Origin: Flavobacteriaceae bacterium
Lineage (GTDB): Bacteria; Bacteroidota; Bacteroidia; Flavobacteriales; Flavobacteriaceae
Assembly (NCBI GenBank): GCA_024644725.1
Contig: JAHEHE010000015.1
Location: 1 to 40,774, forward strand
DNA: 40,774 nt
Reading direction: 5' to 3'
In this document: piece after piece, positions 9,256 to 16,107 of the stretch
How positions within the stretch are numbered: the first letter of the stretch is position 1
Layout of the letters: each line of letters starts with the position of its first letter
Made by a program: the position numbers and the translations under genes
The notes under the pieces: generated by a model
What the model was told of the DNA's origin: nothing
The model's input: only the letters and a program-made list of their open reading frames with translations
The model's database searches: none

Positions 9256-9347
9256 AAACGCTTCTTGCAGACTGTTGCTATGCGGATCTGTGAAGCATTC
9301 CCCTTGCTGATTCAACTGATGATTTTGAACGAATAATCAAATTATTG

Positions 9348-10172
9348 ATGAGACAATACCTAGACCTGATCCAACATGTGATCGACAACGGAGTGACCAA
9401 AGAAGACCGAACAGGTACCGGAACGCGAAGTGTTTTTGGCTATCAAATGCGTTTTGATCTCAATGAGGGTTTCCCAATGGTGACCACGAAAAAGTTGCAC
9501 CTGAAATCGATCATTCACGAATTGTTGTGGTTTCTTAAGGGCGACACCAACATTGGCTACCTCAATGAGAACGGGGTCAAAATCTGGGATGCCTGGGCCA
9601 ACGAGAATGGTGACCTGGGGCCGGTCTACGGATATCAGTGGAGAAACTGGAACGGAGAGGGTATCGATCAAATCAGTGAGCTCGTCGAGACCATCAAGAC
9701 GAATCCCGACAGTCGAAGAATGATCATCAGCGCCTGGAACCCAAGTGTTCTTCCGGATACTTCGGTGAGTTTTGAAGAAAATGTAGCCAATGGCAAAGCT
9801 GCCCTTCCTCCCTGCCATGCCTTTTTTCAATTTTATGTGAGCGAAGGAAAGCTGTCCTGCCAGCTGTATCAGCGTAGCGCCGATATTTTTCTTGGCGTTC
9901 CTTTCAACATTGCCTCTTACGCCTTGCTGACCATGATGCTTGCCCAGGTGACAGATCTCGGCTATGGTGACTTCGTGCACACCTTCGGAGATGCTCATAT
10001 TTACAGCAATCACATGGATCAGATACGTTTGCAGCTCAGCAGGGACCCCAGACCTCTCCCGCAGATGATCCTGAATCCTGAGGTCAAAAATATCTTTGAA
10101 TTTACATTCAAAGACTTTAACTTAGTAAATTATAATCCGCATCCGCACATTAAAGGCGCTGTTTCGGTATAA
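9348..10172 (+). CDS. thyA: Thymidylate synthase
   Basis: Encodes 274 residues from ATG 9348; a TTG one codon upstream is less likely. The enzyme methylates dUMP to dTMP with methylene-tetrahydrofolate, producing dihydrofolate. The catalytic cysteine is C156 in [10 protein letters not shown]. Other landmarks are [13 protein letters not shown] (phosphate loop), [10 protein letters not shown], the arginine pair in DSRRMI and [13 protein letters not shown]. Compared with the 264-residue E. coli enzyme there is a roughly ten-residue insertion just before the catalytic cysteine (around [10 protein letters not shown]). The dihydrofolate it makes would be recycled by folA, encoded two genes downstream. 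Confidence 0.98.
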
Positions 10173-10792: not shown

Positions 10793-11278
10793 ATGGTAAC
10801 AATCATTGCAGCGGTGGGTCGTAACAGGGCCCTCGGAAAGGATAATGACCTCATATGGCACATACCGGCAGATCTTCGTCGCTTCAAAAGCCTGACACGG
10901 GGTCACCACGTCATCATGGGCAGAAAGACCTTTGAGTCCCTGGGGCGGCCACTTCCCAAAAGAACGAATATCATTGTGAGTAGAAATCCGGATTACAAGG
11001 CTGAAGGATGCATCGTGGTAAATTCACTGGAAAAAGCCCTCGTAATTGCTCAATCTGATCCCAACCCTTTCATACTGGGAGGTGCCGAAATCTATAAGCA
11101 GGCCCTCTCATTTGCAGACGCAATGGACCTCACCTATGTCCATGAGGATTTTGAAGCCGATGCCTTTTTCCCTGAATTCGATCCTCAGGAATGGGAATTA
11201 ACGGGTCAGGAAGACTTTAAGAAAGATGATGAGAACCCTTATGATTACAGTTTCGTTCAGTACAAAAAAAGAAAGTGA
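10793..11278 (+). CDS. folA: Dihydrofolate reductase
   Basis: Encodes 161 residues, close to the E. coli length of 159. Landmarks are the N-terminal strand and Met20-like loop (IIAAVGRNRALGKDNDLIW), the catalytic acid D27 in IPADLRRF, the NADPH motif MGRKTFESLGRPLPKR, and ILGGAEIYKQAL. It reduces the dihydrofolate made by thyA, two genes upstream, back to tetrahydrofolate. The last codons lie in the T-tract and stem of a terminator belonging to the opposite-strand gene. Confidence 0.97.
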   Translation: MVTIIAAVGRNRALGKDNDLIWHIPADLRRFKSLTRGHHVIMGRKTFESLGRPLPKRTNIIVSRNPDYKAEGCIVVNSLEKALVIAQSDPNPFILGGAEIYKQALSFADAMDLTYVHEDFEADAFFPEFDPQEWELTGQEDFKKDDENPYDYSFVQYKKRK

Positions 11279-11300
11279 GCTCGAAAAACTCCGAACTCAC
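11263..11300 (-). terminator. Terminator of the secreted-protein gene, overlapping the folA stop
   Basis: GTGAG-C-TCG (11275-11283) pairs with CGA-A-CTCAC (11292-11300), one mismatch. Read on the minus strand it is followed by the complement of the A-rich stretch 11263-11274, giving a strong T-tract. It therefore terminates the minus-strand gene, and the stem contains the folA TGA (11276-11278). Confidence 0.65.
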
Positions 11301-11338
11301 TCTCAAATCACTGGACAATAACTAATTAATAATCACAC

Positions 11339-11929
11339 TTAGATCTTTACCGATTTGACGTATTTCCTTCCGTTGGATCGGAAAACAAACAGGTATTCAC
11401 CTTTTTTAGAGCTTGAGAAATCATAGACTCTTTCTATAAAAGGTTCTTTTTCAAATTTTTCGGAGAGAACAACATCCGAATTCGACGCGTAATAGATCTT
11501 GAAATCCATTGGAGCCGCTTCAAAAGAAGTTCTGGAAACGAAAACCATGTCATCTTTCACGCGAACCATTGGTTTGAAAATTGTAGCTTTCTCCTCCTTG
11601 CGGAAGTTGACCTCGCTTGATTCTACATCGAACGGGATGACTACAATCTCCAACTCTGTGTCGAGCTCGAAATAATACTCTCCATTGGGCAATGATGTCA
11701 GATCAAAACCCTTTGAATACTCACCGGTCTTCTGAATGGCCTCTTTGTAGAGCACGAGACCGTTGAAATCCTTGATAAGAAGCATTGAACCCTTGCTCAC
11801 TTTGGCAAAGCTCATACTGGTTACTTTTGGTTCCTTTTCTTTTACCGGTTCTTTCAGGTCATTGGCAAAGCCCAATAAGGAAACCGAAAGAGCACATGCA
11901 ATCAGACCTTTTTTAGTTAATTTTTTCAT
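11339..11929 (-). CDS. Secreted protein with two related beta-sandwich repeats, unknown function
   Basis: Encodes 196 residues. A signal peptide is clear (basic MKKLTKKG, hydrophobic LIACALSVSLLGFA). The mature part appears to hold two copies of one fold. Copy 1 (about 45-105) runs IKDFNGLVLYKE to FDLTSLPNGEYYFEL. Copy 2 (about 140-196) runs YYASNSDVVLSEKF to YDFSSSKKGEYLFVF. The pattern resembles the type A C-terminal sorting domain of type IX secretion, although here it forms the whole protein. A -7 element and a terminator frame it as a single-gene unit. It is divergent from the second AraC-type regulator, which might control it (inference). Confidence 0.8.
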   Translation of the reverse strand: MKKLTKKGLIACALSVSLLGFANDLKEPVKEKEPKVTSMSFAKVSKGSMLLIKDFNGLVLYKEAIQKTGEYSKGFDLTSLPNGEYYFELDTELEIVVIPFDVESSEVNFRKEEKATIFKPMVRVKDDMVFVSRTSFEAAPMDFKIYYASNSDVVLSEKFEKEPFIERVYDFSSSKKGEYLFVFRSNGRKYVKSVKI

Positions 11930-11957
11930 GATAATATATTATTAAAATTAGACACTA

Positions 11958-11965
11958 CAAATGTA
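11958..11965 (-). promoter_or_regulatory. Putative -7 element for the secreted-protein gene
   Basis: The minus strand reads TACATTTG, matching TAnnTTTG, 28 bases before the ATG at 11929. No clear -33 TTG is seen. Confidence 0.4.
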
Positions 11966-11991
11966 TGGCCAAATGAAAGCGCAGAAAACAA

Positions 11992-12028
11992 CACTATTAA
12001 TCAGTTTATGCACTATATTATCAGTTTA
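11992..12028 (+). repeat. Tandem imperfect direct repeat, possible AraC-type operator
   Basis: CACTAT-TA-ATCAGTTTA (11992-12008) recurs as CACTATATTATCAGTTTA (12011-12028). The 9-base core ATCAGTTTA is identical, and the cores start exactly 20 bases apart, two helical turns. Such tandem half-sites on one face of the helix are typical for AraC-family dimers. The repeat lies in the AT-rich gap between the secreted-protein gene and the AraC-type regulator. Confidence 0.5.
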
Positions 12029-12052
12029 CAATAATTTAACATTAATAATAGT

Positions 12053-12115
12053 TAATTTTGTATATTATATGGTTAAATTCGCATAGAAGTTAGCCTTTTA
12101 AAACCTTTACTTTTG
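12053..12115 (+). promoter_or_regulatory. Two -7 elements upstream of the second AraC regulator
   Basis: TAATTTTG (12053-12060) and TACTTTTG (12108-12115) both match TAnnTTTG. The second predicts initiation near 12122, just before the ATG at 12133, and shows that the in-frame GTG at 12115 is upstream of the message and not a start. Confidence 0.4.
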
Positions 12116-12132
12116 TGAGAAACAGGACAAAC

Positions 12133-13005
12133 ATGATTAACAAAAAGCCGAGTTTCGAGAAGATAAGCCCGAGTTTTGGAAGCTCTATCCTGGTGAAACA
12201 GCATAATAATGAAGTTCAGATGACCAACGCTTTCTGGCATTTTCATCCGGAAGTCGAATTGGTCTACGTCAACAAGGGAGAAGGCAAAAGACATATAGGC
12301 AATCACCTTTCCTATTTCAACAACAGCATGTTGATTCTGATTGGGGCCAATCTGCCACACAATGGGTTTGTCGATCGACTCACGACAACTGGGAAGGAAA
12401 CTATCGTGCAATTCAAATTGGATTTTTTGGGAAACACCTTTTACAATATCCCTGAAATGGTCAATATCAATGCACTTTTTGAAAGGGCGAAGAAAGGGAT
12501 ACTCTTCAAACCCGACACGAAGAAGCTGGTAGGCCCTAAAATAGAGGAACTGGTTGAAATCGATGGAATGGCACGAGTCATCAAGCTACTGGAAATACTC
12601 AATGATCTTTCGCAGGCCAATGACTACTCACTATTGAATGCAGATGGGTTTGCCTTTGAGACCGAGCCACAGGACAGTGAAAAAATCGATATCATCTTCA
12701 AACACGTCAATAAAAACTTCAAAAGACACATCAGCCTGGATGAGATCGCAGACAAAGTGAGCATGACGACGCCCGCTTTTTGCAGGTATTTCAAAAAAGC
12801 TACGGGCAAAACTTTCACCAAGCTTGTCAACGAGTACCGCGTGGTTCACGCAACAAAATTGCTTCAGGAAAACCAGGCGAGCATTACCGACATTTGCTTC
12901 GAATGCGGCTTCAACAACTTTTCACATTTCAATCGCCTGTTCAAGGAATTCACCGGAAAGAGCGCCTCAAAATACCGAAGCGAGATGAAAAGGATAATTC
13001 AGTAG
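12133..13005 (+). CDS. AraC-family transcriptional regulator with N-terminal cupin
   Basis: Encodes 290 residues from the ATG at 12133, preceded by AGGA six bases upstream; a GTG at 12115 overlaps the probable -7 element. Residues about 20-110 form a cupin sensor: FWHFHPEVELVYVNKGEG, then a GNHLSYFNNSMLILIGANLPH segment with the His/Glu pattern seen in sugar-sensing members. The C-terminal 100 residues are the AraC helix-turn-helix pair (ISLDEIADKVSMTTPAFCRYF and ITDICFECGFNNFSHFNRLFK). The gene is divergent from the secreted-protein gene and converges on sppA with one base between stop codons. The ligand is unknown. Confidence 0.93.
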   Translation: MINKKPSFEKISPSFGSSILVKQHNNEVQMTNAFWHFHPEVELVYVNKGEGKRHIGNHLSYFNNSMLILIGANLPHNGFVDRLTTTGKETIVQFKLDFLGNTFYNIPEMVNINALFERAKKGILFKPDTKKLVGPKIEELVEIDGMARVIKLLEILNDLSQANDYSLLNADGFAFETEPQDSEKIDIIFKHVNKNFKRHISLDEIADKVSMTTPAFCRYFKKATGKTFTKLVNEYRVVHATKLLQENQASITDICFECGFNNFSHFNRLFKEFTGKSASKYRSEMKRIIQ

Positions 13006-14773: not shown

Positions 14774-14958
14774 CTGAGTCTTTTTAATATGAGTCGCTAT
14801 CAAACCCTTATTGTTACAGGCCTCAAAAAGGCTTTACACATTAGGTGTTTTTAGAACATTGTTTGTTTCTTTGTACTCGTAAATGGTAAAGTTTGAACGG
14901 CGTTGCAAGATACTGCCTTTCCCCATAATAAACAATGCCTTTCGGGGCCTATCCACGG

Positions 14959-16107
14959 ATGAAAATAGTGCGCACAACCTACTTCTCTATAGGCAGCAAT
15001 GTCGGGAATCGGCTGGATCACCTGCAGGCAGCAGTGGATCAGCTGGGAGAACACGTCGGACACATTGTTCGCCTGTCTTCTGTTTACCGATCCAGCTCCT
15101 GGGGCTACCAGGGAAGTGAGTACCTGAACATGTGCGCAGAGGTCTCAACCGCGTTGAGTCCGGAACTGGTTTTGGAAAATATCCTGCGGATTGAAAGCAA
15201 TCTTGGACGAAACAGAGTTGACGGCCAAAAGAGTAAGAAGAATGGACCGTATGAGGATAGAATCCTGGATATAGACCTTCTTTTTTTTGAAGACGAGATC
15301 ATTTTCTACAACGACCTGAAAGTGCCTCACCCGAGAATGCTCGACCGAAAATTCGTACTGTTGCCCCTGAGCGAAATTGCATCTGAATTCATTCATCCCA
15401 TCGCGAAAAAATCAATTCGCACATGTCTTGAGCAATGCCCCGACGATGGCCTGGTTGAGAAAATCGATCAGAAAGTCAATAAACCTCCCTCACTTCTCGA
15501 TCAGTACAATTACATCGCCATTGAAGGAAATATCGGATCGGGCAAAACGAGCCTGGCCAGGAAAATGGGTGACGATTTCAATGCAAAGCTCGTGCTTGAA
15601 AGGTTTGCCGACAATCCATTTTTGCCCAAATTCTATGCCGATGAGGAGCGCTATGCCTTTCCCCTGGAGATGAGCTTTCTGGCAGATCGTTATCACCAGC
15701 TGAGCGACGATCTCGGGCAGTTCGATTTGTTCAAGAACTTTATCGTATCGGACTACTACATCTTCAAGTCACTGATCTTCGCCCAGGTGACCCTGCCCCT
15801 GGAAGAGTTCAAACTGTACCGAAAAATGTTTGACATTATGTACAAGGAAATTCCCAAACCCGATGTGTATGTTTACCTCTATCAGGATACGGACCGACTG
15901 TTGGAAAACATTAAAAAAAGAGGGAGAACCTATGAACAGAACATCAAGGAACAGTACCTGGAAAAAATCCATCAGGGTTACCTGGCCTTCATCAAATCAA
16001 CAGAAGGCCTCAATCCTCTGATCATAGACGTTTCCGACATGGACTTCGTGGCGAGTGAAAAAGACTACCGCTCGGTATTGAATCAGATCCTCAACTTTTA
16101 CAAGTAG
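14959..16107 (+). CDS. folK: Fusion: HPPK (FolK) with a C-terminal deoxynucleoside kinase
   Basis: Encodes 382 residues from ATG 14959 (390 if the ATG at 14935 is used). Residues 1 to about 150 are hydroxymethyl-dihydropterin pyrophosphokinase: FSIGSNVGNRLDHL, YRSSSWGYQG, and the Mg-binding acid pair in YEDRILDIDLLFFE. From about 180 to the end is a deoxynucleoside kinase: P-loop IEGNIGSGKTSLA, LERFADNPFLPKFY, and the arginine lid NIKKRGRTYEQNI. The first domain makes the pterin pyrophosphate for folate synthesis; the second would phosphorylate a deoxynucleoside, probably a purine one. I recall the same fusion in other flavobacteria. It converges on gldC. Confidence 0.94.
   Translation: MKIVRTTYFSIGSNVGNRLDHLQAAVDQLGEHVGHIVRLSSVYRSSSWGYQGSEYLNMCAEVSTALSPELVLENILRIESNLGRNRVDGQKSKKNGPYEDRILDIDLLFFEDEIIFYNDLKVPHPRMLDRKFVLLPLSEIASEFIHPIAKKSIRTCLEQCPDDGLVEKIDQKVNKPPSLLDQYNYIAIEGNIGSGKTSLARKMGDDFNAKLVLERFADNPFLPKFYADEERYAFPLEMSFLADRYHQLSDDLGQFDLFKNFIVSDYYIFKSLIFAQVTLPLEEFKLYRKMFDIMYKEIPKPDVYVYLYQDTDRLLENIKKRGRTYEQNIKEQYLEKIHQGYLAFIKSTEGLNPLIIDVSDMDFVASEKDYRSVLNQILNFYK

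Follow-up and report, generated by a model that had tools for sequence, protein, structure and literature searches.

A conserved mirror-image pair of tandem operators predicted between an AraC-type regulator gene and a secreted-protein gene in Flavobacteriaceae

What is the short direct repeat that lies in the 203-bp gap between an AraC-type regulator gene and the divergent gene of a secreted-looking protein? The DNA analysed here (the window) is a 40,774-nucleotide stretch from a member of the Flavobacteriaceae. A first-pass annotation of it had proposed that a 9-base core, present twice exactly 20 bases apart and each time preceded by CACTAT, is a candidate operator at which the AraC-type protein binds same-face tandem repeats, two helical turns apart, on behalf of both genes. 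The features needed below, several of which are predictions, are as follows.

11258–11341, minus strand: diverged RNA element at the 3′ end of sec, ATTATTAATTAGTTATTGTC, with a hairpin and T-run (fold −26.6 kcal/mol, z −5.55)
11339–11929, minus strand: sec, the secreted-protein gene, an ORF of 196 aa with an N-terminus that looks like a signal peptide by eye
11958–11965, minus strand: predicted sec −7 box, TACATTTG, a TAnnTTTG 23 bp from O1, with a predicted +1 near 11953
11989–12022, plus strand: putative operator O1, tandem half-sites 11989–12001 and 12010–12022 in a 21-bp register, lying within the predicted sec promoter from about −36 to −69
12000–12028, plus strand: the repeat of the first-pass annotation, two copies of ATCAGTTTA, running into the ends of both half-sites of O1
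12023–12050, no strand: inter-operator gap of 28 bp, conserved in length and little in sequence
12051–12084, minus strand: putative operator O2, an inverted copy found with a matrix built from O1 only, half-sites 12051–12063 and 12072–12084 in a 21-bp register
12108–12115, plus strand: predicted araC −7 box, TACTTTTG, 23 bp from O2, with a predicted +1 near 12120
12133–13005, plus strand: araC, the AraC-type regulator gene, 290 aa, with a C-terminal HTH_18 and a weak cupin match at the N-terminus

The repeat and the conserved element around it

The ORF map agrees that the site lies between these two divergent genes. The regulator carries the C-terminal double helix-turn-helix of the AraC/XylS family (HTH_18, E 3.3e-22, 79 bits against a cut-off of 33.6), and its matches to solved chains fall in the DNA-binding part. 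At the N-terminus the matches to Cupin_2 (E 0.013) and AraC_binding (E 0.095) are both weak and below cut-off. The structure model of the regulator was too poor (mean pLDDT 57.9) and was discarded as evidence. ATG 12133 is likely to be the start of araC rather than GTG 12115, because the latter falls inside the predicted −7 box. The sec protein is predicted to consist of two β-sandwich domains (mean pLDDT 85.2). The best VIA-align row for this model is the DUF3244 structure 3sd2 (Z 11.2, rmsd 4.5, 84 residues), and Foldseek gave a TM-score by target of 0.74 over 77 columns. The modelled fold therefore resembles 3sd2 and may be called DUF3244-like, yet the protein stands outside the family, scoring 17.3 bits against the Pfam gathering score of 25 for DUF3244 (PF11589). 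Elsewhere in the window, a gene at 14935–16107 joins HPPK (folK) to a deoxynucleoside kinase, and the genes of thymidylate synthase (9345–10172) and DHFR (10793–11278) are nearby.

The repeat itself is real: ATCAGTTTA occurs at 12000–12008 and 12020–12028, with no third exact copy within the window. CACTAT does precede both copies, at 11992–11997 and 12011–12016, which is 19 apart and not 20, and the spacing to ATCAGTTTA is accordingly 2 bases in the first copy and 3 in the second, a one-base slip. Among 2000 dinucleotide shuffles of the 203-bp gap, 128 contained an exact 9-mer direct repeat 9–25 bp apart and 9 contained one at exactly 20 bp; the window as a whole holds 11 exact 9-mer direct-repeat pairs spaced 9–25 bp, in 8 places. 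By itself the ATCAGTTTA repeat is weak, borderline evidence, and the strong evidence is conservation of the element that surrounds it.

A search of 199 genomes of the family with the AraC-type protein gave a match at E ≤ 1e-30 in 146. For the footprint sample, sequence upstream of araC was taken from the 90 highest-scoring matches only (L001 and L009–L097; 89 genera by genus labels), and the matrices and models were trained on those same loci. A divergent sec homolog was found in at least 66 of the 90 by single-sequence tblastn, with only 700 bp fetched for 60 of them. Two copies of ATCAGTTTA are present in one locus (the window's own), one copy in another and none in the remaining 88, which rules out the literal 9-mer as the binding unit. 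An iterated matrix instead found one element, O1, in 88/90 loci. Its strongest positions recur with a 21-bp period: C7 and C28 (75 and 66 of the 90 loci), TT12–13 and TT33–34 (T12 and T33 in all 90), and C16 and C37 (79 and 89). O1 thus has the form of an AraC-type tandem operator across the 90 loci, with two direct-repeat half-sites in a 21-bp register; the 20 bp seen in the window, which had been read as two turns, is a one-base slip from this register. The conserved half-site resembles TRTGCTAWWTTAAC in the inner copies and is looser in the outer ones.

When the O1-only matrix was run on the opposite strand, the best site lay 28 bp beyond O1 in 77/90 loci and 27–29 bp beyond it in 82/90. 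In the window the half-sites of this inverted element, O2, are ATGCGAATTTAAC and ATACAAAATTAAC, 21 bp apart. In almost all of the 90 loci, O2 has a lower score than O1. Mean information per column over 77 aligned loci is 0.96 bits in O1, 0.83 in O2 and 0.26 in the gap, and column conservation is far higher in the operators and −7 boxes than in the gap. The distance from O1 to the matched araC start takes 28 different values (126–164) among loci with this layout, and spacing is therefore free outside the operator pair.

The layout recurs beyond this sample. In a named set of 80 loci (79 long enough; species partly shared with the 90), the gap is 28 bp in 75/79 and the −7 box lies 23 bp from O1 in 78/79. 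Three close relatives with both genes (L098–L100), including Lutimonas saemankumensis, whose regulator is 90% identical, retain it as well. In a second family of the order, 13/14 loci have a gap of 28 or 29 bp, but O2 itself scores poorly in them and is often around zero or negative. A divergent ORF of 188–220 aa with a similar start is present in 13/14 of these loci, and the window's protein matches 8/14 weakly by tblastn. The fixed 28-bp gap is not universal, because 8/90 loci have no gap of 27–29 bp and, among six less closely related loci from the window's own family, five (L326–L330) do not show it and one keeps it. Within a single genus (g127), the best O1 match in L326–L328 lies 391 bp before araC and is followed by CGAAACCGTTATAGGTTAAAATTTG, recurring in L327, and L331 retains the gap of 28.

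The first-pass annotation had named, as the observation that would speak against an operator, a repeat region unconserved in relatives that keep both genes. This was checked by the footprinting, and the operator reading survived. The earlier interpretation is therefore partly supported: conservation bears out a candidate AraC-type operator with same-face tandem repeats in this gap, acting for both genes, so that it was right in kind, but it was wrong in the unit and also incomplete. The repeat marks O1 only, which is placed for the sec promoter, and the predicted araC promoter has an inverted operator of its own.

Predicted promoters and sites elsewhere

In a flavobacterium, TAnnTTTG has been described as the −7 box, occupying −12 to −5 (PMC9723704). 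This box occurs exactly 23 bp outside O1 on the sec side in 79/90 loci. On the araC side it stands 22–24 bp outside O2 in 64/90, leaving 26/90 with no strict box near O2. With 23 bp between operator and box on both sides in the window, O1 and O2 are each predicted to span roughly −36 to −69 of their own promoter, which is where class II activators of the AraC family bind. The fixed placement of a class II operator, just upstream of the −7/−10 box, is thus found here for promoters that are themselves predicted. TTG at −33 is rarer than expected in araC promoters (2/63 against 7.2 expected). In sec promoters, TTG at 17–23 bp (the −33 region) exceeds expectation (21/75 against 12.2), and activator dependence is accordingly less clear there.

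Sites away from the locus were sought with a model, R1, built from 80 sites without structure; its training rows include the window's O1 and not its O2. In the window's genome R1 gave 26 bits to a site on contig C131, 17.2 to O1, 16.4 to O2 and 11.2 to the next (150 of 672 candidates scored). The C131 site lies, by eye, 23 bp from TTACTTTG, ahead of a small CBM48-type gene; this contig shares sequence with the end of C106, on which the gene is complete. Across 120 genomes, searched with stricter filters, R1 matched in at least 66 at E ≤ 0.02, and the best among the matches listed are nearly all O1 or O2. A match is present in 59/66 genomes with araC against 7/54 without a clear ortholog, orthologs having been assigned by hand from the protein search; this co-occurrence is partly circular, since the sites behind R1 come from araC-bearing genomes.

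We read 27 distal sites. A strict −7 box stands at 23 bp in 10 and a one-mismatch box at 23 bp in six more, and the genes that follow boxed sites encode sec paralogs, an MFS transporter (twice), a DUF5004 lipoprotein, CBM48 proteins, PQ-loop/MtN3 (SemiSWEET) proteins and a family of about 185 aa. One locus (L219, G014:C1:760000-772500) holds five sec paralogs within 9 kb, four of them about 1 kb apart and the fifth 5.6 kb off, each with an operator and TAnnTTTG at exactly 23 bp. Another (L229, G026:C4) contains a second, diverged sec/araC-like divergent pair with both operators, in which the araC-like frame is only 159 aa. L217 has a one-mismatch box by eye, with no ORF found after it. Six sites lack a strict −7 box where one was expected and are probable chance hits: L222 (peroxiredoxin by eye), L220 (ThuA), L233 (LpxD-like by eye), L226, L228 and L234.

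Three families were then considered as wholes. A high-scoring site precedes 6/6 genes of the unassigned family of about 185 aa found in 120 genomes (L265–L270), with a −7-like box at 23 bp in five of the six; two of the six are not among the R1 hits. Members of this family carry an N-terminal YP motif. SemiSWEET genes have the site in 5/30 cases, which are the five closest to the query, three of them not among the R1 hits. CBM48 genes have it in 1/29 testable cases, and additionally in the window genome's own gene and in one in G113; CBM48 was therefore rejected as a core target and is lineage-specific. Given these three results (6/6, 5/30 and 1/29), regulon membership beyond sec and araC is small and lineage-specific.

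A proposed switch and its alternatives

Starting from what the computation established, namely the element and its inverted copy, their registers and spacings, their conservation and the distal sites, we propose with a probability of roughly 0.78 that the AraC-type protein activates both its own gene and sec through a bidirectional O1/O2 switch. O1 and O2, each a pair of tandem half-sites 21 bp (two helical turns) apart, would each be bound by one AraC-type dimer, and would point toward each other across the 28-bp gap. The four half-site centres are 21, 41 and 21 bp apart, and because these spacings approximate whole turns the half-sites are expected to lie on one face of the DNA, where the two dimers may cooperate. 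Each operator would abut one promoter at the class II position, so that the regulator, presumably with a ligand bound, could recruit RNA polymerase in both directions, to sec with its Ig-fold product and to araC. Activation of araC by its own product would amount to positive autoregulation. Further genes could join the regulon by carrying one such operator with a −7 box at 23 bp.

The same protein might act in the opposite sense, sitting near the −33 regions and blocking polymerase at both promoters until a ligand relieves the block. Many AraC relatives do repress at some sites, both promoters here are abutted by operators, and the sec promoters retain some −33 TTG (21/75), all of which would suit repression. 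It is nevertheless unlikely in our view, since −33 TTG is depleted at the araC promoters and the 22–23 bp to the −7 box are near the activating geometry of AggR, for which 22 bp from the activator site to the −10 is given as optimal in the part of that study consulted (PMC6392122). We consider it less probable still that the conserved element belongs to another regulator, an AraC paralog or a global factor, and adjoins araC by accident. The window's genome does hold four further AraC relatives at E ≤ 1e-30, and the seven of 54 genomes with an R1 match and no clear ortholog include G026, which has its own divergent sec/araC-like pair; but tandem repeats with a 21-bp period are characteristic of AraC proteins, and the best-scoring sites among the matches listed for the 120 genomes are nearly all in the gap of this very araC. 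To the idea that the repeat arose by chance in an AT-rich gap we give almost no weight: a comparable repeat does arise in 128/2000 shuffles, but the conservation of sequence and spacing in 90 loci (about 89 genera) and in a second family already contradicts it.

A conserved RNA and the relation to known systems

In 12 relatives, sec starts 560–730 bp from the matched araC start. In 11 of these, a predicted operator-driven promoter is followed by a near-invariant ATTCATTAATAATTAGTTTAATGTCTTATTTAGTTTAGTTGGTAAA, a terminator hairpin and a T-run; the copy in L020 has diverged. The stretch before sec in L020 opens, by eye, with an apparent broken signal peptide, and resembles a sec copy whose reading frame is gone but whose promoter and 3′ end were retained. 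A leader peptide was considered for the long upstream stretch and rejected, as 11 readable leaders of the 12 (L015 left out) contain no ATG-started ORF of over 33 aa.

We surveyed 109 loci with overlapping species (L009–L037 and L098–L177) for this RNA, and found 82 copies in 55 of them. All 82 have an upstream operator (>8 bits, counted without a shuffled control) and a −7-like box. The element is about 80 nt long and near-invariant, lies on the sec strand and ends in the terminator (examples are L024:2665-2745, L036, L120 and L141). By placement, 45 copies follow an ORF of at least 120 aa, 36 stand alone 70–254 nt from the operator and one is placed otherwise; in 29 of the 45 the stop codon falls 2 nt before TAATGTC. 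Changes on both sides of the terminator stem were seen at two pairs (AU 15 / GC 15; UA 29 / CG 3). A model built from the RNA copies, R2, run with stricter filters, had matches at E ≤ 0.01 in at least 17/120 genomes, and in 13 of these E was no higher than 2e-11. Of 31 matches, 26 fall at the araC locus; a strong one lies elsewhere (G072:C49).

Rfam 15 gave no match at gathering score in five loci holding RNA copies, and only matches below gathering in seven sources, six of them with copies or their neighbours. Two such candidates were set aside: L20_leader, whose gathering score is 58.7, reached 30.3 and 24.9 bits in the two L023 copies and left the other sources unmatched, and rseX matched one L023 copy and no other source. 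The likeness of the window's sec 3′ end to this RNA was recognised by eye and in an alignment (A4), and R2 did not report it at E ≤ 0.1.

The element, with its intrinsic terminator, would form the 3′ end of a sec mRNA under AraC-type control. In several genera the stand-alone copies, in which a predicted operator and promoter lead into the RNA without any ORF, look as if sec copies had shed their coding part and kept the promoter and RNA. It is a tentative but serious possibility that a main product of the regulon in many Flavobacteriaceae is an RNA outside any Rfam family, a putative functional small RNA derived from the 3′ UTR that has passed into stand-alone genes under one AraC-type switch.

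In its action the predicted site would resemble the class II tandem operators of AraC/XylS proteins, with a second, mirror-image copy. It shares tandem half-sites beside the promoter with the class II operators of E. coli AraC (araI1–I2) and XylS/Pm, and araI1–I2 has the same 21-bp period. Compared with those two systems, the half-site sequence here is different and the box is the Bacteroidota −7 box; there are two complete mirror-image operators, one per promoter, with a fixed gap; and the targets are unrelated to arabinose or benzoate. A 21-bp period is also given by the XylS formula as quoted in part of PMC4514859, and by direct repeats in Bacteroides AraC-family motifs in the section of PMC3870299 that treats them. 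The Bacteroides rhamnose regulator among these belongs to the same phylum, but has its own motif and rhamnose genes as targets, and the text on that motif mentions no mirror pair (PMC3870299). AggR promoters, as far as the part of PMC6392122 consulted describes them, share a fixed distance from activator site to box; a single site suffices there, whereas here two tandem half-sites are combined with TAnnTTTG at 22–24 bp. In E. coli rhaSR-rhaBAD, the activators are likewise of the AraC family and the regulator genes are self-activated, according to the passage on them in PMC3870299. That system uses two regulators and 17-bp inverted repeats with a 17-bp spacer, in contrast to one regulator and tandem half-sites here. 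Among open-licence PMC papers, searched by titles and the starts of abstracts, we found no publication on this regulon or RNA.

A borderline repeat has thus led to a precise promoter grammar for a predicted AraC-type regulon that extends over many genera of the Flavobacteriaceae and into another family of their order. Its mirror-image operators with their fixed gap raise the question of whether two AraC dimers cooperate on one face of the DNA. In some lineages the regulon would tie a secreted Ig-fold protein to sugar-related genes (SemiSWEET, CBM48). It is also linked to a conserved RNA with no entry in Rfam, and this group would then offer a small RNA under the control of a transcription factor.
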